A stretch of 64,000 nt of DNA. Origin: Microbacterium invictum. Lineage in GTDB: Bacteria > Actinomycetota > Actinomycetes > Actinomycetales > Microbacteriaceae. Where the stretch lies: NCBI RefSeq assembly GCF_014197265.1, contig NZ_JACIFH010000001.1:1240001-1304000 (forward strand). Direction: 5' to 3'. Position numbers and translations under genes: made by a program. The notes beneath the pieces are model-generated. The model was not told where the DNA came from, made no database searches, and saw only the letters and a program-made list of their open reading frames with translations. The first letter of the stretch is position 1. Each line of letters starts with the position of its first letter. Below are positions 1 to 64,000 of the stretch, piece after piece.

Positions 1-185
1 TTCGTCAGCGGGGCCTCGCGGATCCGCTCGTAGACCCGCTCGAATTCCTTCGTGCTGAAGACGTAGAGGCACCGCTCCTGACCGCGGGTGACGACCAGGC
101 CGTCGCCGAGGTCGGTGCGGAACTTCGCCGGGAGGATGACCCGCCCTTTGTCGTCGAGCTTGGGGGTGTACGTGCCCAGCAACAT
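1..185 (-). CDS. mraZ: Transcriptional regulator MraZ (partial, C-terminus outside window)
   Basis: First gene of the division and cell wall (dcw) cluster; MraZ is a small AbrB-fold DNA-binding protein that represses its own operon. The 61 visible residues begin [15 protein letters not shown] and continue with the ILPAKFR and [14 protein letters not shown] stretches typical of the first SpoVT/AbrB-like half. The ATG at 185 is preceded by an AAAGGGGG ribosome site. Direct repeats of the MraZ box lie about 40-70 bp upstream. The gene runs off the left edge, so the rest of the dcw cluster (mraW, ftsL, ftsI and so on) is expected just outside. Confidence 0.95.
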
Positions 186-224
186 CGGCCACCACCCCCT
201 TTCGACCCGGCCGTCTCAATTGCG

Positions 225-254
225 CGCCACTTTACTCCACTTTCCTCCACTTCA
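225..254 (-). promoter_or_regulatory. MraZ-box direct repeats upstream of mraZ
   Basis: Read on the minus strand, three copies of AAGTGG recur at 10-bp intervals (plus-strand CCACTT at 227, 237 and 247), in the form GTGGAGGAAAGTGGAGTAAA. MraZ boxes in other bacteria are short TGG-containing direct repeats on 10-bp spacing just upstream of mraZ, so this is very likely the autoregulatory operator. Confidence 0.8.
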
Positions 255-289
255 CTATCCATTCCGGAAGGTCGTCTCCACTCGGGCAC

Positions 290-319
290 AAAAAAAGCAC
301 CGACCCGAAGGTCGGTGCT
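290..319 (-). terminator. Intrinsic terminator of the DUF3040 gene
   Basis: A perfect 10-bp stem AGCACCGACC / GGTCGGTGCT (296-305 with 310-319) with a CGAA loop is followed, on the minus strand, by a run of T (plus-strand A run at 290-296). It sits 27 bp past the DUF3040 stop and just upstream of the mraZ promoter region, so it insulates mraZ from readthrough. Confidence 0.9.
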
Positions 320-345
320 CTGTATCCGGTGCGGCGGCGGGGCGA

Positions 346-720
346 TCAGCCCTTGTCGTTGCGGCGATCCCAGCGTTCGTTCATGCGGTCCATGAAGGAT
401 CCGGACGACTGCGGCGCCGGGGATGCCTTCTTCGTGCCCGCGTCCGCCCGCGGCGCGGAGGCGGTCCGCGACGGCGTGACCGCGAGGATGACTCCGGCGA
501 CCATGATCAGGAAGGCGATGACGCCGACGATGATGAGACTGCTGGAGATGCCCACGATCAGGGCGGCGATGCCGACCAGCACGAGGATCGAACCGTAGAC
601 GATGTTGCGGTAGCTGAGGGACTTGCCGGCGCGCGATGCGCTGACGACGTCTGCGTCGTTGTGCATGAGATGGCGTTCCATCTCATCGAGCAGCCGCTGC
701 TCCTGCTCTGACAGTGGCAT
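346..720 (-). CDS. DUF3040 small membrane protein
   Basis: A 124-residue protein of the DUF3040 family, common next to mraZ in actinobacteria; its function is unknown. It starts MPLSEQEQRLLDEMERHL, the family signature, has two adjacent hydrophobic segments (about residues 45-62 and 64-85) forming a membrane hairpin, and ends in a charged tail (MDRMNERWDRRNDKG). The ATG at 720 follows an AGAGGGGGA ribosome site, and a TAGAAT -10 (plus-strand ATTCTA at 752-757) lies upstream. It is divergent from the polyprenyl synthase gene and ends in a clear terminator. Confidence 0.9.
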   Translation of the reverse strand: MPLSEQEQRLLDEMERHLMHNDADVVSASRAGKSLSYRNIVYGSILVLVGIAALIVGISSSLIIVGVIAFLIMVAGVILAVTPSRTASAPRADAGTKKASPAPQSSGSFMDRMNERWDRRNDKG

Positions 721-774
721 GCTTCCCCCTCTGGAGTGTTCAGTCCATTCGATTCTAGCCGTCCCGACGAGAAC

Positions 775-780
775 TAGGCT
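775..780 (+). promoter_or_regulatory. -10 box of a leaderless promoter for the polyprenyl synthase
   Basis: TAGGCT is separated by six bases from the GTG start at 787, so transcription should begin at the start codon itself. The same TAGRCT-N6-start layout recurs at three other genes in this window (pknB, aroG, lpdA). Confidence 0.6.
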
Positions 781-786
781 AGGCCC

Positions 787-1872: not shown

Positions 1873-1910
1873 CTCGGCTCAGGCGCTCAGGCGCTCAGTC
1901 GTGCAGTCGC

Positions 1911-2270
1911 TCAGGCGAGCGTCTGCGCGACCCGGCGCACTTCGCTCTTGCGCCCCTGCCGCAGCGCCTCGATCGGAGCGATGCCGATCGAGTCGTCGGC
2001 CGCGAGGAGCCAGTCGATGACCTCGTCGTCGCCGAACCCGGCATCCTGCAGCACGATCACCGTGCCCCGCAGCGAGCCGAGCGGCTCGCCGTCGACGAAG
2101 AACACCGACGGCACCTTGAACGCGCCGTCGCGGCGGGAGCCGACCAGATGCCGTTCATCGAGCAGGCGACGCACGCGCCCGAGGGACTCGCCGGTCAGGG
2201 CGACGACCTCGGGAAGGGCGAGCCATTCGGTCGGGACTGTCGGAGTGGTTTCACCGGTCACGAGTTCCAC
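1911..2270 (-). CDS. Rv2175c-like DNA-binding protein
   Basis: A 119-residue protein of the Rv2175c family. In Mycobacterium tuberculosis Rv2175c is a winged-helix DNA-binding protein phosphorylated by the Ser/Thr kinase PknL. The N-terminal half (WLALPEVVALTGESLGRVRRLL, HLVGSRRDGAFKVP) is the helix-turn-helix/wing. The C-terminal half (GTVIVLQDAGFGDDEVIDWLL) is the conserved family tail. A GTG start at 2270 is used. It lies tail-to-tail with the polyprenyl synthase and about 2 kb from a PASTA kinase gene, which is the family's usual neighbourhood and suggests kinase control here too. Confidence 0.88.
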   Translation of the reverse strand: MELVTGETTPTVPTEWLALPEVVALTGESLGRVRRLLDERHLVGSRRDGAFKVPSVFFVDGEPLGSLRGTVIVLQDAGFGDDEVIDWLLAADDSIGIAPIEALRQGRKSEVRRVAQTLA

Positions 2271-3970: not shown

Positions 3971-3976
3971 CTTCGC

Positions 3977-33849: not shown

Positions 33850-33916
33850 GCGCGGACCTTGCGGGAGTCGCGCCACGGCGCCTGTCGGCCCCATCCTGTG
33901 GCGCACACCTCCGCGT

Positions 33917-35263: not shown

Positions 35264-35284
35264 GTATCCCACAATACCTGATTC

Positions 35285-35319
35285 GGTGATTCGAGTCTAG
35301 TTCTTTTGTTCGATTCACC
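35285..35319 (-). promoter_or_regulatory. Inverted repeat and degenerate SOS-like box over the HNH gene promoter
   Basis: GGTGATTCGA (35285-35294) and TCGATTCACC (35310-35319) pair at 9 of 10 positions around 15 bases. The spacer holds a minus-strand TAGACT -10 (plus AGTCTA 35294-35299). At 35298-35313 TAGTTC-TTTT-GTTCGA keeps one perfect half of the actinobacterial LexA box (TCGAAC-N4-GTTCGA). This part of the gap is AT-rich compared with its surroundings. Confidence 0.4.
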
Positions 35320-35461
35320 ATGAGAGTTTTATCATCCTTACCAGGCATTTCTCGGGCCGTTGCATCTTATCGCCCACCTCGGACATCCGTTCGAAACGAC
35401 AACGCCGGGTAGAGTTCCTGAGGCTGGCGAACGCGCGCCACTTCCCCGTCACAGGAGCATC

Positions 35462-36985
35462 ATGACCGCCGTCGTCCCTGCCCGCGATCCGCGGAGTCGC
35501 TACCGCATCGAGCCGACGGTCTGGCAGGCGCTGCGCAGTCCGCGCCTGCTCACTCGCGAGGTGCTCGCCGGCCTGGTCGTGGCCCTCGCGCTCATCCCCG
35601 AGGCGATCGCGTTCTCGATCATCGCCGGCGTCGATCCGCGCGTCGGCCTGTTCTCGTCGTTCGTCATGGCGGTGGCGATCGCGTTCCTCGGCGGACGCCC
35701 AGCGATGATCAGCGCAGCGACCGGGGCCGTGGCACTGGTCATCGCGCCGCTCGTGCGCGACCACGGCATCCATTACCTCATCGCTACGGTCATCCTCGCG
35801 GGGGTGATTCAGATCGTGCTCGGCCTGCTCGGGGTCGCGAAGCTCATGCGGTTCATCCCGCGTTCGGTGATGGTGGGGTTCGTGAACGCGCTCGCCATCC
35901 TCATCTTCATCGCCCAGCTGCCGCAGCTGTTCGACGTGCCATGGATGGTCTACCCGCTCGTGACCGCAGGCCTTGCCATCATCTACTTCTGGCCCAAGCT
36001 GACCAAGGCCGTGCCCGCGCCGCTCGTCGCGATCATCGTGCTGACGGCGACCGTGATCGTGTTCGGCATCGCGGTGCCGACCGTCGGCGATCAGGGCGAG
36101 CTGCCCCAGTCGCTGCCGACGCTGTTCATCCCCGAGGTGCCGTTCACGCTCGAGACGCTCCAGATCATCGCGCCGTATGCCGTCGCGATGGCCGCGGTCG
36201 GGCTGCTCGAGTCGCTGCTGACCGCGAAGCTCGTCGACGACATCACCGACACCCACTCGCGCAAGACCCGCGAGGCGATCGGCCAGGGCGGCGCGAACAT
36301 CCTCTCGGGCCTGTTCGGCGGCATGGGCGGCTGCGCGATGATCGGGCAGACGATGATCAACGTGAAAGTGTCGGGCGCGCGCACGCGCATCTCGACGTTC
36401 CTGGCAGGTGTCTTCCTGCTGATCCTGATCCTGGTGCTCGGCGATGTCGTCGCGGTGATTCCGATGGCGGCGCTGGTCGCGGTCATGATCGTCGTGTCGG
36501 CGTCGACCTTCGACTGGCACTCGGTGCGGCCGGCGACGCTGAAGACCATGCCCAAGAGCGAGACGGCCGTCATGCTCATCACGGTCGTGATGACCGTCTG
36601 GACCAACAACCTCGCCATCGGCGTGCTCGCCGGTGTGCTGACGGCGATGGTGCTGTTCGCGCGGCGCGTGGCGCATTTCACGTCGGTCACCCGCCATGAG
36701 GTGATGGATGCCGGGGTGCCCGCCGTCCGCTATGAGGTCGACGGCGAGCTGTTCTTCGCGTCGAGCAACGACCTCACGACGCAGTTCGAGTACACGCACG
36801 ACCCCGAGCTCGTGGTCATCGACCTGTCGCGGTCGCACGTGTGGGACGCATCCACCGTTGCCGCGCTCGATGCGATCGAGACGAAGTACGAACGACTCGG
36901 CAAGCGTGTCGTGCTCGAGGGCATGAACGACGCCACGACGTCGTTCCACGGGCGGCTCAGCGGCGGTGCGACCGGCGGGCACTGA
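35462..36985 (+). CDS. SulP-family anion transporter with STAS domain
   Basis: A 507-residue inner membrane transporter of the SLC26/SulP family (sulfate, bicarbonate or other anions), with about 11-12 hydrophobic segments from LAGLVVALALIPEAIAFSIIAGVDPRVGLFSS (within residues 28-62), including GRPAMISAATGAVALV and NILSGLFGGMGGCAMIGQTMIN. The C-terminal STAS domain (about 400-500) is recognised by YEVDGELFFASSNDL and VVIDLSRSHVWDASTVAALD. ATG 35462 follows ACAGGAG. Substrate cannot be told. Its presence between pilB and the rest of the pil genes appears incidental. Confidence 0.9.
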   Translation: MTAVVPARDPRSRYRIEPTVWQALRSPRLLTREVLAGLVVALALIPEAIAFSIIAGVDPRVGLFSSFVMAVAIAFLGGRPAMISAATGAVALVIAPLVRDHGIHYLIATVILAGVIQIVLGLLGVAKLMRFIPRSVMVGFVNALAILIFIAQLPQLFDVPWMVYPLVTAGLAIIYFWPKLTKAVPAPLVAIIVLTATVIVFGIAVPTVGDQGELPQSLPTLFIPEVPFTLETLQIIAPYAVAMAAVGLLESLLTAKLVDDITDTHSRKTREAIGQGGANILSGLFGGMGGCAMIGQTMINVKVSGARTRISTFLAGVFLLILILVLGDVVAVIPMAALVAVMIVVSASTFDWHSVRPATLKTMPKSETAVMLITVVMTVWTNNLAIGVLAGVLTAMVLFARRVAHFTSVTRHEVMDAGVPAVRYEVDGELFFASSNDLTTQFEYTHDPELVVIDLSRSHVWDASTVAALDAIETKYERLGKRVVLEGMNDATTSFHGRLSGGATGGH

Positions 36986-37044
36986 CCCGGCGACCCGAGA
37001 GCCGCGACGCCGTGCCGAAGGTGCGAAGGCGCCGAGGTGCCGAA

Positions 37045-37077
37045 CGGATGCCGGATTCTCCCCAGCTCTGGCATCCG
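37045..37077. terminator. Inverted GGATGCC/GGCATCC hairpin between convergent sulP and pilC
   Basis: CGGATGCCGGA (37045-37055) pairs with TCTGGCATCCG (37067-37077) over 11 bp with one G-U pair and an 11-base loop. It lies 59 bp after the sulP stop and 5 bp before the pilC stop, where a shared terminator is expected. The arms are the over-represented GGATGCC heptamer in inverted orientation, as at 5948. Confidence 0.65.
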
Positions 37078-37082
37078 CTCGA

Positions 37083-38318
37083 CTATTGGTTGCCGAGCTC
37101 TCCGTAGATCGAGAAGATCGGCATGTAGAGCGACACGACCATGCCTCCGATGAGGATGCCGATGCCGACGATCAGGATCGGCTCGATCGACGCGGTGAGC
37201 TGCTCGGTGGCCGTCTCGACCTCGCCCTCGTAGAAGTCGGCGATGGATGCCAGCATCTCGGGCAGCGTTCCCGACTCCTCGCCGACGGATGCCATCTGCG
37301 CCACCATCGGCGGGAACACGCCCGCCTTGGCGAGTGGTGCTGAGAACGTCTTGCCCTGCTTGACAGACTCGCCCACCGCGCGCACGGCTTCTTCCACCTT
37401 GTAGTTGTTGGCCGCCTCACCCACGATCTCGAGCGCCTGCACGAGTGGCACGCCGGCCTTGAGCATCATCGACAGCCCGCGGCTGAACCGGGCGACGGCG
37501 ATCTTGGTCGAGAGCGGTCCGAACACGGGCAGCTTCAGCTTCCAGGGGTCGACGACGCGCCGCACCTTTTCGGTGTTCTTGTTTCGCTGCCACCAGAACG
37601 CCCCACCAATGCCGACGACGATCATGAGGGGCAGGAGCCACACCATGTTGTTCGACAGGGTGACGAGGATCTGGGTCGGCAGCGGGAGTTCCGAGCCCAT
37701 CCCGGTGAACATGTTTGCGAACACCGGCACGATGAAGGTGACCATGCCGATGACGCCGAGGATCGCGATGACGAGGACGATCAGCGGGTAGGTCGTCGCG
37801 GACTTGATCTTGTTGTTCAGTTCGGCTTCGTTCTTGTACGTCGCCGCGACGCTGGTCAGCGACTGCCCGAGAAAGCCGCCCGACTCCCCCACGCGCACCA
37901 TGCTGACCATCAGCGGCGGGAACACCCGTTCGTGCTGGGCCATCGCGGTCGACAGCGGCTGCCCCTGTTCCACCGCGGCGTGGACCTGCAGGAGCGCGGC
38001 CTGCAGCTTCTTGTCCTCGGCCTGCTCCGTGAGGATCGCGAGGGTGCGCATGAGCGGCAGGCCGGCGTTGATGAGCCCGGCCATCTGCTTGGCGAACACC
38101 GCGAGCGTGTCGGCCTTGACGTTCTTCTCGAGACCGGGGATTGATATCTCTTGATTGAGCCCGGTCTTCGAGGTCAGCGCGACCTCGAGCGGGGTGAGAC
38201 CCTGGGCGCGCAGCTTCGAGACGACGGCGCTCTCGCTGCCCGCCTCGATCGTGCCCTTGACCATCCCGCCGCCACGCGCGTCGACGGCGCGGTAGGTGTA
38301 CTCCTCGATGAGCGACAT
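37083..38318 (-). CDS. pilC: Type IV pilus platform protein PilC (GspF family)
   Basis: The polytopic inner-membrane platform on which PilB and PilT act. The 411-residue protein has two repeated GspF domains: the first contains FAKQMAGLINAGLPLMRTLAIL (about residues 70-91), the second FSRGLSMMLKAGVPLVQALEIV (about 272-293). Membrane helices include PLIVLVIAILGVIGMVTFIVPVF and the final ILIVGIGILIGGMVVSLYMPIF. The ATG overlaps the pilT stop (TGATG). Last gene of the minus-strand pil operon, followed by a hairpin built of inverted GGATGCC. Confidence 0.94.
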   Translation of the reverse strand: MSLIEEYTYRAVDARGGGMVKGTIEAGSESAVVSKLRAQGLTPLEVALTSKTGLNQEISIPGLEKNVKADTLAVFAKQMAGLINAGLPLMRTLAILTEQAEDKKLQAALLQVHAAVEQGQPLSTAMAQHERVFPPLMVSMVRVGESGGFLGQSLTSVAATYKNEAELNNKIKSATTYPLIVLVIAILGVIGMVTFIVPVFANMFTGMGSELPLPTQILVTLSNNMVWLLPLMIVVGIGGAFWWQRNKNTEKVRRVVDPWKLKLPVFGPLSTKIAVARFSRGLSMMLKAGVPLVQALEIVGEAANNYKVEEAVRAVGESVKQGKTFSAPLAKAGVFPPMVAQMASVGEESGTLPEMLASIADFYEGEVETATEQLTASIEPILIVGIGILIGGMVVSLYMPIFSIYGELGNQ

Positions 38319-39496
38319 CAGTTGCCCCAGCCCGCTGCCGAACGCTCCGAGGCGTGCATCGTCCACGCCTCCGCGTCGTAGTCCACCGGCCGCACGCGTG
38401 CCTCGTCGAACGTCTTCGGGTCTTCCGCGACCTCCTTGGCGAGCGCCAGCGAGATCGTCCCGCTCTCGACGAGACGCTTGAGGTCCTGATCGAGCGTGTG
38501 CATGCCGAGCGCACCACCGGCCTGCATCATCGAGTAGATCTGGCTGATCTCTCCCTCTCGGATGAGGTTCGCGATGGCGGGTGTGTTCACCAGCACCTCG
38601 GTGGCGATGACACGTCCGGCATCCTGCGCCTTCGGCAGCAGCGTCTGCGTGATGATGCCGCGCAAAGTGTCGCCGAGCTGGGTGCGCACTTGATTCTGCT
38701 GATCAGACGGGAACGCGTCGACGATACGGTTGATCGACTTCGCCGCGCTCTGCGTGTGCAACGTGGACATCACGAGGTGACCGGTCTCGGCCGCGGTCAG
38801 CGCCGTCGATATCGACTCGGGATCACGGAGCTCACCGATGAGGATGATGTCGGGGTCCTGACGCAGCACGCGGCGCAGCGCCTCGGAGAACGAGGCCGTG
38901 TCGCTGCCGATCTCACGCTGATGGATGAGCGCCCGCTTGCTCGTGTGCTGGAACTCCACGGGATCTTCGACGGTGACGATGTGGGCGGGCTTCGTCTGGT
39001 TGACGACGTCGATCATCGAGGCCAGCGTCGTCGACTTTCCAGAACCGGTCGGCCCCGTGACGAGCACGAGTCCACGCGGCTTCATCACGAGATCGGCGGC
39101 GACACGCGGCACGCCGAGCTCGGCGAAGCTCTTGATCCGGTCGGGGATGAACCGCAGCGCGACCGCCACCGCGCCGAGCTGGCGGAACACGTTGACGCGG
39201 AAGCGCGCGACGTTGGGCACCGTGATCGAGAGATCGACCTCGCCGTGCTGGCGGAACTCGGTGACCTGGTCACTGGTGAGCATGCCGCCTACCGCTGAGT
39301 CGAGCCAGTTCGCCGTGGTGGGCTCGAGGTATCCGGGGATGTCGGCAAGGTCGCCGTCGACGCGCATGAGCGGTGGGTGGTTCGCCGTCAGGTGCACATC
39401 GGACGCGCGCGAGCGCTGCGCGATGCCCAACAGATCGAACAGCGGCGACACACCAGCCGTCGAGGGCGGGGTCGTGGACGTGGTGGGGATCGACAT
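38318..39496 (-). CDS. pilT: Type IV pilus retraction ATPase PilT
   Basis: Motor for pilus depolymerisation, giving twitching motility and, in competent bacteria, DNA uptake. In 392 residues: ASDVHLTANHPPLMRVDGDL (N-terminal PAS-like domain, about 30-50), Walker A VLVTGPTGSGKSTTLASMID (about 145-164), HIVTVEDPVEF, Walker B ILIGELRDPES and the PilT-specific HLVMSTLHTQSAAKSINRIVDAFP. The N-terminus carries a 20-residue Ser/Thr/Pro extension. It is coupled to pilC downstream and 6 bp from the pilO-like gene upstream. Confidence 0.94.
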   Translation of the reverse strand: MSIPTTSTTPPSTAGVSPLFDLLGIAQRSRASDVHLTANHPPLMRVDGDLADIPGYLEPTTANWLDSAVGGMLTSDQVTEFRQHGEVDLSITVPNVARFRVNVFRQLGAVAVALRFIPDRIKSFAELGVPRVAADLVMKPRGLVLVTGPTGSGKSTTLASMIDVVNQTKPAHIVTVEDPVEFQHTSKRALIHQREIGSDTASFSEALRRVLRQDPDIILIGELRDPESISTALTAAETGHLVMSTLHTQSAAKSINRIVDAFPSDQQNQVRTQLGDTLRGIITQTLLPKAQDAGRVIATEVLVNTPAIANLIREGEISQIYSMMQAGGALGMHTLDQDLKRLVESGTISLALAKEVAEDPKTFDEARVRPVDYDAEAWTMHASERSAAGWGN

Positions 39497-39502
39497 GGCG
39501 GT

Positions 39503-40288
39503 TCAGCCTTCCGTCCGGGTGAAGGTGAGCACCGACAAGGTGAGCTTGCCCGTGGAGTACTCGAGGTTGATCGGTGAGAGCAGGCGTGGTCCGGCGCCGA
39601 GGGCATCGACGAACGCCGCAGCCTTCTGCGCGTCAGCGGTCATCTCCGCACGGACTGCAGCGGTGTCGACGTCCTCAGCATCTCCGCTGTCGGAGTCGTC
39701 ATCCTCGGCGCCGGGCAGGGCATACGGAAGCGTCAGATCGACGGTGACGGTGACGAGCACCTGCATCTGCGGAGACTCGTCCGAGCCGCCGGGCGCTGCG
39801 GGAGCGGTCGTTTCGGGAACTGCCGCGTCGCTCACGGCCGAGTCGGTATCGGTCTGCTCAGTCGACGCAGCATCGGCAGCCCCGGTGCTTGCCGCTGCCT
39901 CCGCGACCGGGTTGCCGTCGGCATCCAGGCCCGTGCGGGGCGTCCACTGCTCCAACTCGCCGGCGACGACACTTTCAATGCGGATGTCAGCTGTCTCCGC
40001 CGCGGCATCGACGATCTCGTGGATGTCATCGAGCTTCGGTGCGGCGGCGATCTCGCTTCGCAGCTCGGCGAGGTTGCGGTCGATCTCGTCGATGCGGTCG
40101 TCGGCTGCGGACAGTGCGTCGATCTGCGTCTGGTAGACCGCGTTGCTCTGGTCGACCGAGTCGGCGTTCGCGTTGATGGTCTGCGCCTGCGCGAACATCG
40201 GCATCCCGATGAGCGCCACGCCCAAGACCAGCACGACGACGAGGAGGAGGATGCCGAGGAGATTGATCAGCTGCTTGTTGAGGGTCAT
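39503..40288 (-). CDS. pilO: PilO-like type IV pilus alignment protein
   Basis: A 261-residue bitopic membrane protein: short cytosolic start, one membrane helix (INLLGILLLVVVLVLGVALIGMPMF, residues 8-32), then a coiled coil (about 45-90, QIDALSAADDRIDEIDRNLAELRSEI region), an acidic Thr/Ala/Asp-rich variable insert (about 125-200) and a C-terminal domain. Position after pilN and the helix plus coiled-coil layout are the main evidence for PilO; sequence similarity is weak, as usual for this family. It overlaps pilN by four bases (ATGA). Confidence 0.75.
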   Translation of the reverse strand: MTLNKQLINLLGILLLVVVLVLGVALIGMPMFAQAQTINANADSVDQSNAVYQTQIDALSAADDRIDEIDRNLAELRSEIAAAPKLDDIHEIVDAAAETADIRIESVVAGELEQWTPRTGLDADGNPVAEAAASTGAADAASTEQTDTDSAVSDAAVPETTAPAAPGGSDESPQMQVLVTVTVDLTLPYALPGAEDDDSDSGDAEDVDTAAVRAEMTADAQKAAAFVDALGAGPRLLSPINLEYSTGKLTLSVLTFTRTEG

Positions 40289-40929
40289 TGCTGTGCCTCC
40301 GCAGCGTAGGTGCCCGTGTACACGGTCTGATCGAACGTGACACGCAGCTCGTAGTCGTATGCGTCGCCGGAGAGGGTCGTCGCCCAGCCATCGGCGTCGA
40401 GGACACCGGGCAGTTGACGCACCTCACGGATGAGGGCGACGAAGTCGGTCGGCGTCGCGCTGATGAAGTGGATGCTGCCGGAGGCACCCGCCTCGGTGGT
40501 CGGATCTTCCGTGTGCGGCAACCCGCCGGGCGCGAGCGAGTACTCCGAGATGCCGACGTCCGCTGGCAGGACATCCTTCACGGTCTCCAGCAGACCTCCC
40601 CATTTCAGGTCGGTGCCCATAGCCTGCGTCCGGAAGTCGCCGAGCTCGGACTCGAGCTGGAGCTTCTGACTGACCGGCTGCAGCGCTGCGACCTGGATGA
40701 GCAGCTCGTTGGTGTGCGCGTTCGCCGCCGCGAGGCGCACCGAGGCGGCGGTCAGCAGCGTGAACACCCCTGCCGTGCCGATGGCGACGACCGCGAGGAC
40801 GGCCACGAAGCCCCAGCCCCACTTGCGCAGCAGACCAGCGCGTTCGCGGCGCTCGACGACGGTGCGCGGCAGCAGGTTTACTCGGGGCGCACCGCCCACG
40901 GTGAGGGTCGGTGCCGATGCGAAGGCCAT
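40285..40929 (-). CDS. pilN: PilN-like type IV pilus assembly protein
   Basis: A 214-residue bitopic protein whose cytosolic N-terminus carries the PilN signature RVNLLPRTVVERR (about residues 15-27), the segment that docks into PilM. A membrane helix follows (GWGFVAVLAVVAIGTAGVFTLL, about 38-60), then a coiled coil and a small ferredoxin-like C-terminal domain (SGSIHFISATPTDFVALIREV). It starts one base inside the pilM stop and overlaps pilO by four bases, so pilMNO are translationally coupled. Confidence 0.85.
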   Translation of the reverse strand: MAFASAPTLTVGGAPRVNLLPRTVVERRERAGLLRKWGWGFVAVLAVVAIGTAGVFTLLTAASVRLAAANAHTNELLIQVAALQPVSQKLQLESELGDFRTQAMGTDLKWGGLLETVKDVLPADVGISEYSLAPGGLPHTEDPTTEAGASGSIHFISATPTDFVALIREVRQLPGVLDADGWATTLSGDAYDYELRVTFDQTVYTGTYAAEAQQ

Positions 40930-41993
40930 CAGCGATCCCCTCCGAGGGCGAGTGCGGCAGTGGTGATGAGATTCAGGTCGTCGTCGGCCGACGCCACCGC
41001 GGTCTTGACTGCGATGACACCACTGGCGGCGAGCACCTGCACGGGCATCGGCAGGCTGGCCCCCAACGCGGCAGGAATGCCGGCGACGGCGGCACCGGCT
41101 CCGCTGACAAGCACCCGGGTGATGGGAGCGTCTGCCGAGCGGTCGGCATAGAACCGCAGCGTGCTGCCCAGGCGCAGCACGAGATCGTCGATGGCTGCGG
41201 GAGTCATCTCCGTGCTCGGCCGGGCGAGTGCGCGCGCCGCGGAGCGTCGCCGCAGCGGCACCTCGCCGCCTGCGGACGCAGGAACGGTCTGGAGGATCTC
41301 CTCCAGAGCGGGCACGTTCTCGGCATCGTGCTCCACGGTCTCGGAGGCGTGGGCGCGCACCGCCGCCGTCGCGATGTCGACCGGGATGATGCGCACGAAG
41401 CGGGGCGCGCCGTCCTGCACGACGACGACGTAACTCGTGTGGTCGCCGAGGTGGAGGGCCGCGACCGTCTCGCCCTGCGCCGCGACGCGCGAGACCGCTC
41501 GGGCCAAGGCGAACGGAGCGAGGTCGACCACCTCGACGTCGATCTTCGCCTTGGCGATGGTGCCGACGAGCTCCTCGACCGTCTCGGCAACGGCCGCGAC
41601 CAGCAGGCCTGACACCTGGTCGCCCTCCTGCGAGATCGGGTAGAAGTCGAGAACCGCCTGATCGGCCGGCACCGGCAGCAGGTCCTGGACCTGGAAGGGC
41701 AGTGCCTGGGCGAGCAGGTCGGGCCGCATCGCCTGGGTCGTATAGTCGCGGACGAGAATGCGACGGCTGCCGATTCCCAGCACGACGCGCTTCGACTTGA
41801 TGCCCGCGCGCGACCAGAGCTGGCGGATGGCCAGCGTCACGGCATCCCGATCGAAGACTTCGGAGTCCTTCGCAGCGCCGGGCGGAAGAGGGACGGCGCC
41901 GTACGCCACCAGGGTCGGGGACTTCCCCGTCGTCACCTCGGCGGCGCGCACGCCCTCTTCGGTGATCTCCAGACCGACGATCGTCTTCGCCAT
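40929..41993 (-). CDS. pilM: Type IV pilus assembly protein PilM (actin-like ATPase fold)
   Basis: A 354-residue cytosolic actin-like protein that links the PilN/PilO membrane subcomplex to the motor. The opening VGLEITEEGVRAAEV (phosphate-1-like strand), VVLGIGSRRILVRDYTTQAM, LPFQVQDLLPVPADQAVLDFYPI (within 95-120) and LVSGAGAAVAGIPAAL near 275-290 are family landmarks. It begins 25 bp after the prepilin peptidase gene on the same strand. Confidence 0.9.
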   Translation of the reverse strand: MAKTIVGLEITEEGVRAAEVTTGKSPTLVAYGAVPLPPGAAKDSEVFDRDAVTLAIRQLWSRAGIKSKRVVLGIGSRRILVRDYTTQAMRPDLLAQALPFQVQDLLPVPADQAVLDFYPISQEGDQVSGLLVAAVAETVEELVGTIAKAKIDVEVVDLAPFALARAVSRVAAQGETVAALHLGDHTSYVVVVQDGAPRFVRIIPVDIATAAVRAHASETVEHDAENVPALEEILQTVPASAGGEVPLRRRSAARALARPSTEMTPAAIDDLVLRLGSTLRFYADRSADAPITRVLVSGAGAAVAGIPAALGASLPMPVQVLAASGVIAVKTAVASADDDLNLITTAALALGGDR

Positions 41994-42018
41994 GTCGCGC
42001 TCCTCTCCCCAGGCCGGC

Positions 42019-42858
42019 TCAGCCGGCGACCAGCATTCCTACGTACCAACGGGCGATCGCCTCGCCCGACAAGACTCCGACCCACGCCCCGGCGACCATG
42101 TACGGGCCGAACGGGATCGCGCTCTTGCGCGTCGCCTTGCGCGTCGCCATCAGCGCGAGACCGACGACTCCGCCGATGAGGAAGGCGGCGAATGCGCCGA
42201 CGACCAGCGCGCCCCAGCCGATCCAGCCGAGCGCGGCTCCGAGCACACCGGCGAGCTTGACATCGCCGCCACCCATACCGCCCGGCTTGACGACGCGCAG
42301 CAGGAAGTAGAACGCGAACAGCGCCAAGCCGCCGATCGCCGCGCGCAGCAGCGCCTCCCACGGCACGCCGAGAAGGCACGCGAGGGCGAACAGCGCGGCC
42401 AGCACGATATAGCTCGGCAGCACGATGACGTTCGGCAGTCGTCGCGTGTCGAGGTCGATCATCGTGAGCGCAATGCTGATGGATGCCAGGTAGAGGTAGG
42501 CGACCAGCACCGGCCAGAACTCGGGCGGGACCGATCCTTGAGCGAGCGCCGCGGAACCGAACGACTCGACCAGCCACCACGTCACGCCGACGAACGCGAC
42601 TCCCGTCGCCAGTTCGACCAGCGGATACCGCGCCGAGATCCGCACACCACACGACGCGCACTTACCGCGCAAAGCTAGCCATGACACGAGGGGCACGTTC
42701 TGCCACGGCCGCACCGGTGCATCGCACACCGGGCACTGGCTGGGCCGGGTGAGCGGGATGCCCGCTGGCACCCGGTAGACCACGACGTTCAGGAACGAGC
42801 CGATGATCAGGCCGAGAACACCTGCGAAGACAAGGAGGACGAGTGCAGGAGCTGTCAC
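42019..42858 (-). CDS. pilD: Prepilin peptidase (type IV leader peptidase/N-methyltransferase)
   Basis: A 279-residue polytopic aspartic protease that cleaves the leader of prepilins before the conserved Phe/Met and methylates the new N-terminus. The first helix GLIIGSFLNVVVYRVP (about 15-30) is followed by a cytosolic zinc loop with CPVCDAP and CASCGVRIS (about 43-76). The catalytic aspartates lie in MIDLDTRRLPN (about 137-147) and GGGDVKLAGVLG (about 196-207). Its GTG start overlaps the stop of the PilX-like gene. Four candidate substrates are encoded upstream. Confidence 0.94.
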   Translation of the reverse strand: MTAPALVLLVFAGVLGLIIGSFLNVVVYRVPAGIPLTRPSQCPVCDAPVRPWQNVPLVSWLALRGKCASCGVRISARYPLVELATGVAFVGVTWWLVESFGSAALAQGSVPPEFWPVLVAYLYLASISIALTMIDLDTRRLPNVIVLPSYIVLAALFALACLLGVPWEALLRAAIGGLALFAFYFLLRVVKPGGMGGGDVKLAGVLGAALGWIGWGALVVGAFAAFLIGGVVGLALMATRKATRKSAIPFGPYMVAGAWVGVLSGEAIARWYVGMLVAG

Positions 42859-44561
42859 GGTGACGCCACATCCCGTCGCGAGAGGAGGTCACCGAGTACG
42901 GCGCCTCCGCCCTCTTCGACGTCTTCATCCTCGCCCGGATCGACGCTCCCGGGGAACCCGACCGGGGTATACCAATAGTTCGGGTTTCCCTTCATCTGGC
43001 CGGCCTGCACCGATCCCAGCCAGTCCTCGCCGGCGTTCGGGAAGTTGACGGTGCACTGCGTGAAGATCATGGCCGAGATCTTCGACTTGCCACCGGCCGG
43101 CAACATGCGCGTCGTCGCGATGCTGACCGTGCCCGAGGTGGCGCAGTCGCGCGTGGGCGATTCGGGAACGATGAACCACAGACGGTGCTCCGCCCCGTCT
43201 GCGGACTCGTAGGTCTGCTGCTGCACGTTCATGGACGGTGCGACGAAGATGATGTCGGTCTTCAGTCGCATCGTCCCGCTGTAGTTGTGCATGTCCAACG
43301 TCGAACAGTGGCTCGCGTCGATGATCGTCGGAGTGGTGAGACTGTTGATCTTGGCGATCATCTCGTGCTCCGGATACCAGCTGTATGCGCACGAACCCGT
43401 CCACGCGATCTTCTGGAACACGCCATCCGTGACGAGTTTGTCCAGATCTGCCTGCGTGATTCCCTGCCATTGCGGGGCGTTCGGCAGCTGAGGCACGGTG
43501 ACATTGGGTTGCAGCGACGTCCTCGTCACCGATGTCACAGCCCAGGCCTCGGCCGGCGGGTTGCTCGGAATGTTGAGAGTACCGCCGTACATGATTCGGT
43601 CGCGCGCCGCCGGTGCGCCGCCCGACAGCGTGAGGTTCCCACCCGCATAGATGCTCTGGACGAAGCGGGAGCTGATACTCGTCGCCACCACATTGGCCTT
43701 CGCGTGAATGCTCCCGTCGATGGTCATACCGCCGCTCAAGGTGACGTTGCCTGCCGATGACACCACGTCGCCGTAGATCCTCGGGCCGCCGGAGAACGTG
43801 ATGTCGCCCTTCGCGTACACGCCGCCGTCGATCGTGCTGCCCCCCGACACGTGCACTTTGCCGTTGAGTGACACGAGATCACCGTGGATGTCCGTGCCGG
43901 ACCCGATGGTGACGTCCTTCTCGGCGTAGACGTCACCCGTGACTTCGCACCCGCCGACGCCGATCACCGTGCCGGCGGGCAGGTACATCGAACCGGCGAT
44001 CGCGCCGCCGGAGTTGCAGGTGAAGTCGCCGGAGATACCCTCCTCCGGGATGACCCACACCGTCGATGGCACCGCCGGGTCGACCGCCTTGATCTTCAGC
44101 GCGGCCAGGTTGAGCGGCGCGCGGGTGATGAGAGCCGGCTCGTTCACGACCATCGGCGCGGGCGTGTACACGTAGACCGCCTCGGTCGTGGTCACGGCGC
44201 CGTCGGCGGCATGCCCCTGGGAGCGGAAGATCACGCGTCCCGAGAGACTCACACAGTCGCGCGTGACGGTGAACGTGGATCCGCTGCCCATGTCGCCGCT
44301 GACGGGGTCGGGCTCGATCGGCGTGTCATCGCAAATGTCGCCATCGCGCAGCGCCACGGCGAGGGCCTCTGCCAGGCCGGCGTCTGCCGCGGCTCGCGAC
44401 TGGGCTGTGCTCCGGCTCGAAACCACAGCGCCCGCGGTGTTGACGACGATGGCCGCCAACGCAAGCCCGCCGATCGTCAGCACGAGCATGACAACGAGCA
44501 CGGTGACGAGCGAGGACCCTCCGTCTCGGTCTCCGCGCAGCCGATCTCTCAGTTCCAGCAC
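42855..44561 (-). CDS. PilX-like pilus-associated protein with beta-solenoid (bactofilin-like) repeats
   Basis: A 568-residue protein with a short charged start, a single hydrophobic helix (SSLVTVLVVMLVLTIGGLALAAIVVNTAG, residues 16-44) and the SRAAADAGLAEAL helix, which resembles the N-terminus of PilX minor pilins though the Glu at mature position 5 is missing. Residues about 165-300 contain seven or so repeats of a VYAEKDVTIGSGTDIHGD / VYAKGDITFSGGPRIYGD pattern with roughly 20-residue period, predicted to form a right-handed beta-solenoid. A cysteine-containing C-terminal domain of about 250 residues follows. Coupled to pilW upstream and pilD downstream. A pilus tip or adhesive role is an inference. 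Confidence 0.75.
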   Translation of the reverse strand: MLELRDRLRGDRDGGSSLVTVLVVMLVLTIGGLALAAIVVNTAGAVVSSRSTAQSRAAADAGLAEALAVALRDGDICDDTPIEPDPVSGDMGSGSTFTVTRDCVSLSGRVIFRSQGHAADGAVTTTEAVYVYTPAPMVVNEPALITRAPLNLAALKIKAVDPAVPSTVWVIPEEGISGDFTCNSGGAIAGSMYLPAGTVIGVGGCEVTGDVYAEKDVTIGSGTDIHGDLVSLNGKVHVSGGSTIDGGVYAKGDITFSGGPRIYGDVVSSAGNVTLSGGMTIDGSIHAKANVVATSISSRFVQSIYAGGNLTLSGGAPAARDRIMYGGTLNIPSNPPAEAWAVTSVTRTSLQPNVTVPQLPNAPQWQGITQADLDKLVTDGVFQKIAWTGSCAYSWYPEHEMIAKINSLTTPTIIDASHCSTLDMHNYSGTMRLKTDIIFVAPSMNVQQQTYESADGAEHRLWFIVPESPTRDCATSGTVSIATTRMLPAGGKSKISAMIFTQCTVNFPNAGEDWLGSVQAGQMKGNPNYWYTPVGFPGSVDPGEDEDVEEGGGAVLGDLLSRRDVASP

Positions 44562-45091
44562 AGCAGGCCTCCGTCGCTCACTGCCTGCGCGGTGACGCCG
44601 TCGGTCACGGCGATCGTGACCTGATCCATCGTGATCTCCATGCCGATGCGGAGGCTCTTACCGCCGTCATCGGCGAATACCTTCGCGTTGTCGAGTGTGC
44701 CGACGACGCCGGTGGCGAGCTTTCCCCAGGAGGAGTCTGCTGCGGGCAGCGCACCACTCGCGTCCACTCGGTACACGAGCGCGCCCCCGGGCAGAAGCTC
44801 CCACGCGCGGCACTCAGGCGTCCCGTCCGGCGCGATGTACGTGGCGTCCACCCGCGTGCCCTCGTCGTTGATGTGAAAGCCGGTCGCGTTGCGAACCGAT
44901 GTCGCGATGCTGCTCGCGACAACATTCGCGGTGCCCGTCGCGCTGTCACGCGCGACACCGTCTCGCTGCACCGTGAATCCGTTGACGAAAGTGATGGCGA
45001 TGAGGGTGAGAGCAATGGCACCGACCGCCACCGCCACAATCAGCTCGACCAGGGTCATGCCCTGCTCATCGCCGCGACCCCAGCAGGTCAT
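44549..45091 (-). CDS. PilW-like minor prepilin
   Basis: A 180-residue class III signal-bearing protein: an 11-residue leader ending in Gly, then MTLVELIVAVAVGAIALTLI, with Glu at mature position 5 and a hydrophobic helix that would be cleaved by PilD. The globular part has a cysteine in CRAWELLPGGALVYRVD and another near the C-terminus (GGLLCWN), which could form the D-loop disulfide. It overlaps pilV by four bases upstream and the PilX-like gene by 13 bases downstream. Confidence 0.85.
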   Translation of the reverse strand: MTCWGRGDEQGMTLVELIVAVAVGAIALTLIAITFVNGFTVQRDGVARDSATGTANVVASSIATSVRNATGFHINDEGTRVDATYIAPDGTPECRAWELLPGGALVYRVDASGALPAADSSWGKLATGVVGTLDNAKVFADDGGKSLRIGMEITMDQVTIAVTDGVTAQAVSDGGLLCWN

Positions 45092-45528
45092 GATGCCGCC
45101 CCCACGCTGATCCTCGTCGGAACCGACACCAGCCGTCCTTCACTGTCGGTCACCGTGAACGTGACGAGGATCGAACGGGGATACGCCGCCGCACCGGTCG
45201 GGCAGACCGGGTCGCCGGCTTTGTCTGGAGATGCGACCGCGGTGACGGTGAGGTCCCGGTTGCTCGGCTCGTCGGGATCGATCGCCGCGACCGCAGTCAG
45301 CAATGCGTTACACGTCCGAACTGTACCCTTCGCCGTCGGGAACTCGTCGCGGAGCTGAGCCAGACGATCGTTCGCGAGAGCAGTCGCCGCGACCACATCA
45401 CGGTTGACCACGCTCAAGCTCACCCCCGAGATCAGCAACGGGAGAACAGCGAGCGAGATTACCGCGAAGAGGAACAAGGCGATAATGACCTCGACGAGGC
45501 TGAAACCGTCGTCTTCGGTCTTGGTCAT
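45088..45528 (-). CDS. PilV-like minor prepilin
   Basis: A 146-residue prepilin with an eight-residue leader (MTKTEDDG) before FSLVEVIIALFLFAVISLAV, the PilD cleavage site and Glu5. Cysteines in RTCNALL and DPVCPTG probably form a disulfide. Position between pilA and pilW and the size fit a minor pilin priming or decorating the fibre. First gene after the hairpin that follows pilA, so its expression probably depends on readthrough. Confidence 0.85.
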   Translation of the reverse strand: MTKTEDDGFSLVEVIIALFLFAVISLAVLPLLISGVSLSVVNRDVVAATALANDRLAQLRDEFPTAKGTVRTCNALLTAVAAIDPDEPSNRDLTVTAVASPDKAGDPVCPTGAAAYPRSILVTFTVTDSEGRLVSVPTRISVGAAS

Positions 45529-45565
45529 GCTAGATCGCCTCCGAGCATGGAGTGACGGGATAGTG

Positions 45566-45600
45566 TCGAAGCCGGCCCGTTCGGGTCGGGCCGGCTTCGA
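45566..45600 (-). terminator. Strong hairpin immediately after pilA (attenuating terminator)
   Basis: TCGAAGCCGGCCCG (45566-45579) and CGGGCCGGCTTCGA (45587-45600) form a perfect 14-bp stem with a seven-base loop, 12 bp downstream of the pilA stop and 37 bp before the pilV start. It would stop most transcripts after the major pilin and let a minority continue into the assembly genes. Confidence 0.8.
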
Positions 45601-45612
45601 TCGTGAAATCGC

Positions 45613-46044
45613 TTACGGGATGATGCAACCCGGTCCCGCGAACGCAGCGGTCTTGCTCGACGCCGCAACCGCGGTCGGCTTCGTCCCCGTGTATGCGACG
45701 ACGCAGATAGTCTCGATCGTCGGGTTTCCCGTGCCCATCTGGGCGACTGTGACGTCGTCCTTAGCCAACTGACCAAGCTCCTTCGTGATCGCCGCCGTGA
45801 GCTCGGTTGCGTCAGTCACCGATGCGACCTGCGACGCCACGGCGGTGGCACCGTTAGCAGCGATCGTCTCGAGCGACTGCTGCTTTGCCTGATCCTGCAG
45901 GCCGGCGAACACCGGGATCGCGATCGCGGCGAGGATGCCGAGGATCACGACGACGACGATCAGTTCGATGAGCGAGAAGCCCTCGTCGCCGTTCTCCTCG
46001 CGACGAGCCTTCACCGCCTGGACATAGTTGTGGATGCTGCGCAT
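45613..46044 (-). CDS. pilA: Major type IV pilin PilA
   Basis: A 143-residue prepilin: a 22-residue charged leader ending DEG, then FSLIELIVVVVILGILAAIAIPVF, the canonical mature N-terminus with Glu5 and the long polymerisation helix. The small C-terminal domain contains ATAVASQVASVTDATELTAAI and cysteines in ETICVVAY and AGPGCIIP, which can close a C-terminal disulfide loop. ATG 46044 is chosen from GGAAAGG upstream; the frame extends to 46095. It has its own promoter and a 168-base leader and is followed by a strong hairpin, so it is probably the most abundant product of the locus. Confidence 0.92.
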   Translation of the reverse strand: MRSIHNYVQAVKARREENGDEGFSLIELIVVVVILGILAAIAIPVFAGLQDQAKQQSLETIAANGATAVASQVASVTDATELTAAITKELGQLAKDDVTVAQMGTGNPTIETICVVAYTGTKPTAVAASSKTAAFAGPGCIIP

Positions 46045-61505: not shown

Positions 61506-61527
61506 GTTCACATCGTATTCGGCAATT

Positions 61528-61544: not shown

Positions 61545-61554
61545 GTATTATTAG

Positions 61555-61749: not shown

Positions 61750-61755
61750 GAAGCC

Positions 61756-62729: not shown

Positions 62730-62922
62730 CGGCTCCCCCGTGTCATCAGGATAGGGCCCCGGGCGCCGGCGCGGGAGGTCGACTTCTCATCCGGCGGCTC
62801 CGCCGATCCTCCCCGGCAGGTTCGGACGCGCGCGGAGGATGTCAACCCCCGTGCGACCCGCTCCGGCAGTCCCGTACCGTGCACACGACAGCCGACCTAT
62901 CGAACGGAGATGAGTGAGAACG

Positions 62923-63471
62923 ATGGCGACTTTGACTGGAAAGAATGTGGCGTTCCTGGCGACGAACGGGTTCGAAGACAGCGAGCTGACCTCGCCCTGG
63001 TCTGCGGTGGTGGATGCCGGTGCCACGGCGACGCTGGTCTCGCCGGCGAGCGGATCGATCGAGGGCAAGAAGGGCCACTCCCAGCAGGTCGAGCTGGCCG
63101 CCGCAGATGCGCGGGCCGACGACTTCGACGCGCTGATCCTGCCCGGTGGGGTCGTCAACGGCGACCACCTGCGGATGGATGGCGACTCGATCGCGTTCGC
63201 CAAGGCGTTCTTCGAGCAGCACAAGCCCGTCGGGGCCATCTGCCACGCCGCGTGGATCCTCGTCGAGGCGGGCGTCGTCGACGGTCGTACGATGACCAGC
63301 TATCCGAGCCTGCAGACCGACCTCCGCAATGCCGGAGCCGACTGGGTCGACGAAGAGGTGGTGGTCGACGCGGGCTTCGTCACGAGCCGGAACCCCGACG
63401 ATCTGCCGGCATTCAACGCGAAACTCGTCGAGGAGATCGCCGAGGGCCCGCATCGGGACCAGACGGCCTGA
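62923..63471 (+). CDS. DJ-1/PfpI-family protein (type 1 glutamine amidotransferase fold)
   Basis: A 182-residue cytosolic protein of the DJ-1/PfpI superfamily, close to the general stress YraA/YhbO-type deglycase or protease group. The fold shows VAFLATNGFEDSELTSPWSAV (catalytic Glu about 17), DALILPGGVVNGD and the nucleophile in VGAICHAAWILVEAG (Cys about 107, followed by His). ATG 62923 follows GGAGATGA; GTG 62914 is an alternative. Ends in a hairpin at 63485-63525. Confidence 0.93.
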   Translation: MATLTGKNVAFLATNGFEDSELTSPWSAVVDAGATATLVSPASGSIEGKKGHSQQVELAAADARADDFDALILPGGVVNGDHLRMDGDSIAFAKAFFEQHKPVGAICHAAWILVEAGVVDGRTMTSYPSLQTDLRNAGADWVDEEVVVDAGFVTSRNPDDLPAFNAKLVEEIAEGPHRDQTA

Positions 63472-63484
63472 CTCGACCACGTGC

Positions 63485-63525
63485 GCGCCGGTGGCGGAGA
63501 CCTCAGCCCTCTCCGCCGCCGGCGC
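63485..63525 (+). terminator. Hairpin after the DJ-1/PfpI gene
   Basis: GCGCCGGTGGCGGAGA (63485-63500) and TCTCCGCCGCCGGCGC (63510-63525) form a 16-bp stem with one T-G pair and a nine-base loop, 13 bp past the stop codon. The gap to 63599 holds nothing else convincing. Confidence 0.8.
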
Positions 63526-63599
63526 TTTCGGTCGAACAGGAGCGGATCGACTGGGAGTGGGCGACCGCACGCCTCGGTGACGCCTGACAGGTGCGCCCG

Positions 63600-63791
63600 T
63601 CAGTGCGAGCCGTCGTCGGCCGTGCCGTCGAGCGCGAGGTCAGGATCGACGTCGGTCGACTCACCGGCGCCGAAGCCCTCTTCGGGACGATCGGGGCGCG
63701 GGGGCGTCTCGGTGTCGCCTTCATCCGGCAGCGAGGGCTCCTGGGGAAGCCCGGTATCCGGGTCGAGCGGAGTCTGGTCGGGGGTGCTCAT
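63600..63791 (-). CDS. Small acidic hypothetical protein
   Basis: A 63-residue protein rich in Pro, Asp, Glu and Gly (TPLDPDTGLPQEPSLPDEGD) with no hydrophobic core and no cysteine, so it is probably disordered. Comparable short DPDTGLP-containing proteins are common as single genes in Microbacteriaceae. The ATG at 63791 follows AAAGGAT. Function unknown. Confidence 0.7.
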   Translation of the reverse strand: MSTPDQTPLDPDTGLPQEPSLPDEGDTETPPRPDRPEEGFGAGESTDVDPDLALDGTADDGSH

Positions 63792-63924
63792 GCTGAGATC
63801 CTTTCGTCAGGTCCGTCGAGCGTGCGCGCCGGGGCGCGACCGGCACACGGTCTTGACGCTGCGCCGGCACGGGTGTAGCGATCGTGCGTGCGTCAACCCC
63901 GTGGCATCCATTCGACGACGCTTC

Positions 63925-63930
63925 TAAGGT
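63925..63930 (+). promoter_or_regulatory. -10 box of a probable leaderless promoter
   Basis: TAAGGT lies seven bases before the ATG at 63938 with no ribosome site between. Confidence 0.45.
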
Positions 63931-63937
63931 GACGTGC

Positions 63938-64000
63938 ATGGCGAAAGACGATGCGGTCACACTCGATGTCGGCGACCATGAGGTGCGCATCACGCACCCC
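63938..64000 (+). CDS. Probable LigD-type DNA polymerase/ligase domain protein (partial, N-terminus only)
   Basis: Only 21 residues are visible: MAKDDAVTLDVGDHEVRITHP. The VxVxGHEVRITxP opening followed by a Pro-Asp-Lys stretch is typical of LigD polymerase-domain (eukaryotic-type primase) proteins of bacterial non-homologous end joining. The gene leaves the right edge, so domain content and length cannot be judged. Confidence 0.55.
   Translation, partial: MAKDDAVTLDVGDHEVRITHP

Follow-up and report, generated by a model that had tools for sequence, protein, structure and literature searches.

GGATGCC, an abundant DNA word of Microbacteriaceae with several dialects and a candidate methyltransferase as its reader

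The window analysed here is a stretch of 64 kb, positions 1,240,001-1,304,000 of the single-contig genome of Microbacterium invictum (G000, 3,580,260 bases). It carries genes for a type IVa pilus and is crowded with the heptamer GGATGCC, which reads GGCATCC on the opposite strand and is called the word below (Table 1). The word was present with 97 copies, 51 on the plus and 46 on the minus strand, and was the top over-represented 7-mer of the window. Dinucleotide-shuffled versions of the window held 16.5 copies on average (standard deviation 4.0, maximum 26 in 100 shuffles). Called genes made up 91% of the window and contained 86 of the 97 copies. An earlier sequence-only reading of the stretch had counted about 85 copies and described the heptamer as strongly over-represented; the recount bore this out, and 12 of the 12 coordinates named there fell at most 4 bases from a copy. 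Genome-wide, 4,798 copies were counted in 3.58 Mb, 2,395 forward and 2,403 reverse, compared with 318 (148 and 170) for the reversed pattern used as a control. The over-representation was thereby confirmed as real, genome-wide and strand-balanced.

Table 1. Copies of GGATGCC and features of the pilus region in the window
Feature	Position	Strand	Remark
GGATGCC/GGCATCC, 97 first bases	421, 1458, 2040, 2626, 3058, 3463, 3572, 4345, 5354, 5948, 5975, 6529, 7619, 7695, 8497, 8689, 10010, 11150, 11650, 11690, 12437, 13190, 13590, 14592, 14964, 15393, 15749, 16635, 17948, 18200, 18742, 18837, 19940, 20134, 20742, 21282, 21619, 21697, 23052, 23379, 24888, 25681, 26312, 26354, 27633, 28917, 29510, 30255, 31417, 31475, 32241, 32880, 35765, 36706, 37046, 37070, 37154, 37245, 37287, 38618, 39920, 40200, 40249, 41841, 42481, 42756, 45933, 47111, 48426, 48544, 49074, 49292, 49910, 50594, 51083, 51616, 52507, 53504, 54667, 55252, 55796, 56026, 56311, 56368, 56980, 58238, 58632, 59324, 59907, 59978, 60605, 60725, 60764, 61870, 62079, 63012, 63903		whole window, 1..64000
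Densest GGATGCC cluster	37046..37293		5 copies in 248 bases: 37046+, 37070-, 37154+, 37245+, 37287+
Type IVa pilus locus	32182..46044		context of the window; not required by the word
PilB-like T2SSE	32182-33849		type IVa pilus locus
DUF222/HNH endonuclease gene	33917..35263	-	zero copies of the word; lies in the gap 32880-35765, the second-longest of the window
T2SSF/PilC	37083-38366		type IVa pilus locus
PilT-like T2SSE	38318-39496		type IVa pilus locus
PilM	40929-41993		type IVa pilus locus
N_methyl pilin-like genes	45088-45528 and 45613-46044		type IVa pilus locus

Codon choice and strand were assessed in 464 kb of G000, composed of the window and 20 stretches of 20 kb, with genes called by a simple custom caller. 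The 627 copies in this sample corresponded to 1.32 per kb of gene sequence and 1.56 per kb of the remainder. The sequence-only reading had proposed a codon- and dipeptide-preserving shuffle as a check. Synonymous shuffling of codons within each gene did not reproduce similar counts, leaving 195 ± 12 coding copies (20 shuffles, largest 212) where 540 were observed, and the dipeptide part of the check was passed as well because the codon shuffle keeps each protein. GGATGCC was the highest-scoring 7-mer against the shuffle, with the overlapping CGGCATC narrowly second. The claim that the word overrides the codon preference for Asp and Ala was also upheld. In the context nnG-GAY-GCC, Asp was encoded by GAT in 200 of 270 cases, compared with 1,636 of 8,690 in other contexts, and Ala in nnG-GCN-TCC by GCA in 130 of 164 cases, compared with 1,338 of 18,721.

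Both strands were used alike, with 309 plus and 318 minus copies and no heterogeneity over the 21 stretches (chi-square 19.5, 20 degrees of freedom, P 0.49; replichores unmapped). Gaps between copies were random, with coefficients of variation of 0.94-1.05. Inverted pairs, suggested beforehand by analogy to uptake sequences, were not in excess, and no orientation clearly prevailed among pairs less than 60 bases apart (+- 15, -+ 13, -- 12, ++ 7). The near absence of the word postulated over the minor-pilin genes was within chance; 42.5-47.1 kb holds 2 copies, and even the longest gap of the window, 3,177 bases, is ordinary for random placement (P about 0.55). A similar statement on pilB and the HNH gene held for the latter and failed for pilB, which has 2 copies. 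Two low-GC stretches of the genome were poor in the word, with 0.35 and 0.60 copies per kb. The former (L127, C1:2400001-2420000) is a low-GC island and showed a match to dndC (DNA phosphorothioation) of Streptomyces plasmids.

In the genus, sampled with 119 congeneric genomes including G000 and some incomplete ones, 102 genomes held at least 2,000 copies of GGATGCC, with a maximum of 9,877 in G099. Among 259 genomes of 85 genera of Microbacteriaceae, the word was common and uneven, with a low of 229 copies in G248 (2.9 Mb); some family genomes of less than 2 Mb had fewer than 229 copies. Since the reversed pattern is a poor control in some genera, for example for G214, expectations there were taken from a first-order Markov model of fetched sequence. 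Other families of the order, represented by 79 genomes, had ratios of GGATGCC to the reversed control between 1.1 and 6.6, mostly from one to four. Two genomes of another family (f4), G183 and G196, held 1,361 and 1,415 copies in 2.0-2.1 Mb with controls of 206 and 280, and a related word may be present there outside Microbacteriaceae.

Several GGATGCC-poor genomes were rich in another word: CGGATCCG, CGGAACCA, CGGATGCGG, CGGATGCTGC or GGATGGCC. Genome-wide counts for 118 congeners gave CGGATCC 6,303 times in G042, 7,188 in G056, 9,980 in G063, 4,115 in G102, 9,284 in G110 and 8,706 in G114, and at most 1,674 times in every other congener. These six genomes were poor in GGATGCC, with 434-1,441 copies. 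In 20-kb samples, CGGATCC was the top 7-mer in G056, G063 and G114 and not in G110. G117 contained CGGAACCA 59 times in 60 kb, with 2.5 expected. Further dialects were called from samples of 60-80 kb (G031, G034, G049, G053, G202, G207 and G231). CGGATGCGG was found in G034 and G053, where CCGCATCC occurred 90 and 66 times with 8.3 and 7.9 expected. G049 showed CGGATGCTGC (CAGCATCC 43 times, 3.0 expected) and G031 GGATGGCC (40 times, 5.2 expected). In G231, which belongs to another genus, the palindrome GGATCC, counted on both strands, occurred 278 times with 69 expected. G202 and G207 yielded AGCGGATC 26 times (1.6 expected) and ACACCGAT 35 times (1.7 expected). Both are small-genome relatives (1.4 Mb), and their hyper-abundant words were noted as GCGGATC in G202 and ACACCGATG in G207. 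No standout word was seen in 60-80 kb samples of G037, G060, G088 and G096, nor in the sampled sequence of G211, G214 and G248.

GGA or GGAT was common to all dialect words except that of G207. In G053, GGATGCC was still 2.8-fold enriched next to the genome's own word, as if this species were in transition between words. On an RpoB codon tree of 28 genomes, the dialects were scattered, with about seven origins. GGATCC appeared separately in G110/G114, nested among GGATGCC species with support of 0.98-1.0, in G042/G056 and in G231; GGAACC, GGATGCGG, GGATGCTG and GGATGGCC each arose elsewhere. Relative to congeners with other dialects, the perfect word was 5.7-fold enriched and its one-mismatch neighbours lay at 0.70-1.54, which argues against conversion from one precursor. 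The sole neighbour outside this range was GGATCCC at 0.15, and it belongs to the own dialect of the control congeners. GGACGCC, the source expected for deamination, stood at 0.97. GGATGCC is no simple mutational product.

Candidate genes for a protein reading the word were found among the methyltransferases. A match to PF01555 was present in 39 of 40 genomes, with one in G000 at 3,208,397-3,209,266. C5 methyltransferases (PF00145) were detected in 19 of the 40 genomes and none was found in G000. The PF01555 gene of G000 encodes 356 amino acids (L313:638-1708) and overlaps a gene read as lplA by 4 bases. Its product passed the Pfam N6_N4_Mtase cut-off, matched the NCBIfam models PRK11524 and CcrM far under their curated cut-offs, and matched the sequences of the solved enzymes RsrI, CcrM and MboIIA. 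No nuclease gene was present beside the methyltransferase gene in five loci of 2.4 kb, endonucleases not having been searched genome-wide. The protein is apparently a conserved, orphan adenine methyltransferase of the beta class (CcrM/RsrI-like). The features of a restriction-modification site were not seen: GGATGCC is enriched rather than avoided, and the five loci held no adjacent nuclease gene.

Sequences of the methyltransferase were retrieved for 38 of the 39 genomes, all but G047, whose best match lay in a frame of 290 amino acids that was taken, unchecked, for another gene. Full reading frames were obtained for 37, and the G041 sequence has N over the catalytic motif. Twenty-two sequences were labelled GGATGCC. 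For two of them, G000 and G254, the word had been found de novo, and the other 20 labels were taken from genome-wide counts. The enzyme of G117 is not encoded beside lplA, and no lplA-like gene lies at that locus. The methyltransferase tree placed the G117 enzyme among those of other genera (support 0.98; together with G231, 0.79), although the RpoB of G117 is that of Microbacterium. The disagreement suggests that the dialect switch in G117 came with gene replacement, the methyltransferase seemingly having been exchanged for one from another genus, a natural swap experiment.

Within the enzyme, 123 alignment columns were invariant in 31 genomes outside the Microbacterium GGATCC/GGAACC lineages, G231 being among the 31, and 115 of these were unchanged in the lineages too. 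Exactly one of the 123 had changed in all three lineages, with 0.0024 expected from the product of the single-lineage rates; without G231, it was one of 126 with 0.0040 expected. The Gly at this column was replaced by Gln in G042 and G056, by Glu in G063, G110 and G114 and by Lys in G117. In RpoB, used as a control, zero columns had changed in all three lineages (0.0003 expected); LplA was uninformative as a control for G117. When a branch-length-weighted simulation was run on a methyltransferase tree from which the loop had been excluded, 85 of 200,000 draws reached the Gly pattern, a value for one column that is uncorrected for all columns. The covarying column sits between DPPF and the helix DDRFDDY. 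Reading of the first three bases is assigned to Loop-2B in the CcrM-DNA structure, where Arg44 sits on a guanine (PMC6787082). By its position the column likely belongs to a base-reading loop corresponding to Loop-2B of CcrM, the two loops differing in length. A post hoc comparison showed Arg one or two residues behind R-G-x-L in 22 of 22 GGATGCC sequences and 0 of 7 GGATCC/GGAACC sequences, G231 included, a pattern reached in 520 of 200,000 simulation draws. In this comparison, enzymes of the dialects without the middle G of the word all lack the Arg. A methylation motif, offered as an alternative by the sequence-only reading, has gained the best molecular lead, a conserved and apparently orphan enzyme whose likely base-reading loop varies with some of the dialects.

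Genes for DNA uptake were less informative. The type IVa pilus locus of the window is lower in GC (0.66-0.67), sporadic in the genus and encloses the DUF222/HNH gene; the closest relatives of its PilT are from Microbacterium. Of 30 genomes, 7 had a complete PilB-type ATPase and one more had a partial one. Tad-type ATPases formed two clusters, one of them named type A. When the topA-linked Tad cluster of G000 was compared with seven others, TadB/C-like proteins were matched in seven of seven and TadA in six of seven; the TadE-like small proteins were among the most divergent parts in the few genomes compared. The type-A TadA gene of G034 (C1:1934001-1954000), a genome that retains a strong word, is broken into two parts some 12 kb from each other, which looks like the effect of an insertion. 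A search for ComEC (PF03772) was positive for 133 of 135 genomes of the family and for 30 of 30 chosen ones, and in G000 comEC follows directly after comEA and precedes a gene read as holA. ComEA regions compared by eye showed no clear dialect split. Relatives in which no type IVa pili were found are enriched in the word. Judged from these gene distributions, a competence apparatus is present, but no pilus type explains the word. In the actinomycete Micrococcus luteus, transformation depends on Flp pilus genes (PMC4322843); a term search through that paper's text turned up no mention of uptake sequences.

Five Microbacterium phages, counted irrespective of the dialects of their hosts, held 67 copies of GGATGCC in all, with 42 expected. 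Observed and expected counts were 16 and 11.0 for Min1, 6 and 8.7 for SanaSana, 10 and 8.8 for Quenya and 16 and 9.3 for Abigail; Efeko is treated below. CGGATCC was almost missing in four phages of M. foliorum/M. paraoxydans (L274, L275, L276 and L277, the last being Efeko), with 1, 0, 4 and 0 copies where 14.0, 13.8, 13.5 and 5.4 were expected, as if these phages avoided GGATCC. Min1 showed no avoidance, with 28 copies and 21.2 expected.

The best explanation as a whole, at a probability of about 0.4, is that GGATGCC is a methyltransferase-read self-DNA word of Microbacteriaceae used in DNA uptake. The PF01555 enzyme probably reads the word; that the word serves uptake falls a little short of an even chance. 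In the proposed mechanism, the apparently orphan beta-class adenine methyltransferase, whose gene neighbours an lplA-like gene in Microbacterium, would read GGATGCC and most likely N6-methylate its adenine. Competent cells with ComEA-ComEC and a supposed Tad/Flp pilus would prefer to take up or keep DNA with the methylated word. Through biased uptake and recombination, copies would accumulate on either strand of core genes and spacers, leaving islands and most phages near background. If the reading loop changed or the enzyme was replaced, the preferred word would change and the genome would slowly be rewritten in the new dialect. What was observed is the enrichment and its symmetry, the repeatedly arisen dialects, and a loop that covaries with GGATCC/GGAACC; methylation, uptake bias, a receptor and the direction of cause are inferred. 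Replacement of thousands of sites several times within a genus fits a word that accumulates by a drive-like process, and biased uptake of self DNA would be such a process. Tentatively, this would amount to a methylation-coded, dialect-switching self-DNA language, in which one orphan methyltransferase would write and define the word, competent cells would read it when choosing DNA, and changes at a few residues of the base-reading loop or an enzyme swap would rewrite thousands of sites and raise sexual barriers between species. The uptake motif of the sequence-only reading, or a self-recognition motif, remains the leading idea, now with uptake-sequence-like dialects and without support for the link to the type IV pilus.

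Several observations weigh against the self-DNA reading. Of the 13 GGATGCC-rich genomes that were examined, 8 yielded no PilB-type ATPase, which leaves the proposed tie between the word and the pilus of the window unsupported and rules out this pilus as the required uptake machine. Type-A Tad was likewise rejected as machinery tracking the word, as it was not found in G009 and G069, both among the word-richest genomes. Across 74 other genera its presence was weakly associated with higher word density (medians 665 and 404 per Mb, Mann-Whitney P 0.014, uncorrected for phylogeny). ComEC was equally universal in word-poor genera and is therefore not diagnostic for the word. On the side of the enzyme, G099 with its record number of copies gave no PF01555 match, although the gene may have been missed in an assembly of about 60 contigs, and G037, G060, G088 and G096 carry the enzyme without a standout word. 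The Arg behind R-G-x-L was also missing in G053 (GGATGCGG) and in G060. The Gly change is not universal, since G231 has GGATCC and an unchanged key Gly, and the grouping of G117 with G231 on the methyltransferase tree reduces the Arg losses from four events to three. No shared loop change was found in the GGATGCGG, GGATGCTG and GGATGGCC genomes, and a Leu/Ile switch, FLNE[L/I], that fitted 20 genomes failed with 17 more. Finally, Efeko (NC_052941.1), a 17-kb phage of M. paraoxydans, held 19 copies of GGATGCC with 4.3 expected; it may be adapted to the word of its host.

The rival to be taken most seriously, though rather unlikely, is a word resembling the highly iterated palindrome (HIP) 1 of cyanobacteria. 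As a non-palindromic, adenine-methylated actinobacterial counterpart, GGATGCC would be the target of an orphan methyltransferase and build up by methylation-directed repair or strand marking, without any role in uptake. The same loop covariation would fit, no tested pilus or competence gene clearly tracks the word, and both words have densities near one per kb. In some cyanobacteria HIP1 is replaced by alternate HIPs, the matching methyltransferase then being present (PMC4390886), which resembles the dialects. Elhai's model of biased retention of near-cognate mutations should, however, deplete the source sequences, whereas all neighbours of GGATGCC stood at 0.70 or above except GGATCCC. HIPs are palindromes, while the words of Microbacteriaceae are mostly asymmetric, GGATCC alone being palindromic, and the enzyme here is one gene, adenine-type by family, that changes in a loop. 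Four of five phages were within 0.7-1.7 of expectation. With near-cognates undepleted and phages mostly spared, uptake was slightly preferred over a HIP1-like role. More doubtful is a classical unmethylated uptake sequence for which an extracellular minor pilin or ComEA would be the reader, the methyltransferase covariation being coincidental or secondary. The DNA uptake sequences (DUS) of Neisseriaceae (PMC3630211) match in copy number (nearly 6,000 in 2.4 Mb), in lying on both strands of coding and non-coding DNA, and in species-wise switching between dialects with a shared core, which is CTG there and GGA or GGAT in Microbacteriaceae. Adjacent comEA and comEC and the divergent TadE-like proteins also speak in its favour. 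On the other hand, the core is shorter here, the hosts are monoderm actinomycetes, spacing is random and lacks the inverted-pair excess of Neisseria, no tested pilus cluster follows the word, the ComEA regions, judged by eye, show no clear split by dialect, and a loop covarying with some dialects would have to be due to chance at 0.0024 expected.

A polar or architectural chromosome motif (Chi, KOPS, matS-like or a nucleoid-protein site), which the sequence-only reading had also considered, would agree with genome-wide abundance and lineage specificity and is very unlikely: the strand ratio was uniform across the 21 stretches (origin unlocated), and the repeated replacement of thousands of sites within one genus is hard to square with essential chromosomal sites. 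For the palindromic dialect GGATCC a polar role is excluded because palindromes cannot be polar. A by-product of codon usage, codon-pair preference or context-dependent mutation is hardly credible. It would account for frame 2 (Asp-Ala) as the largest class of coding copies, but not for the excess over the codon shuffle, for spacers as dense as genes on both strands, or for congeners of similar GC without abundant GGATGCC; codon bias and deamination were ruled out by the shuffle, the dialects and the undepleted GGACGCC.

Two further systems are relevant to the self-DNA reading. Campylobacter jejuni imports only DNA that CtsM has methylated at RAATTY (PMC10046745). There, as in the working model proposed here, a ComEC-bearing organism has its own DNA marked by a methyltransferase. 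The word of Microbacteriaceae differs in having 7-8 bases, in being very abundant and in dialects that differ between congeners, and its methylation and role in uptake are proposals. The enzyme resembles CcrM (GANTC) and other beta-class orphans in passing the N6_N4_Mtase cut-off and in the placement of its covarying loop as Loop-2B (PMC6787082). It differs from CcrM by a long variable insert after DPPF, by scores far below the CcrM/PRK11524 cut-offs and by an apparent target that varies between congeners.

In the cited papers, the uptake sequences named are those of Neisseriaceae and Pasteurellaceae, with the methylated motif of Campylobacter in addition, all Gram-negative. No report of a GGATGCC word was recognised among the matches listed for open-licence literature on uptake sequences in Actinobacteria, natural transformation in Microbacterium, dialects, or uptake and methylation in Microbacteriaceae; methylation of the word may already be on record somewhere. 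Of 5,512 papers matching the heptamer itself, the 20 listed appeared irrelevant, primers for example. If the self-DNA reading is true, monoderm actinomycetes would have a family-wide counterpart with a candidate specificity gene and, in a single genus, several dialects. How self-DNA recognition originated could then be tested by a one-gene swap, and there might be a hint for getting DNA into Microbacterium. If the HIP-like explanation is true instead, methyltransferase-linked iterated motifs would have arisen outside cyanobacteria, which would help to explain HIP1.

Local repeats were encountered in three genomes. In G000, a tandem repeat at C1:1886908-1887005 contains the word within three identical 14-mers, GGATGCCGGGTGCC, at 42-base spacing. 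In G067, six copies of CGGATCC lie at exactly 16-base spacing (C1:30365-30451). The stretch C1:100001-120000 of G212 (0.9 Mb), with 46% GC, showed about 20 copies of the GC-rich 8-mers CGTGCGGC and GCAGGGCC and is probably a repeat array.

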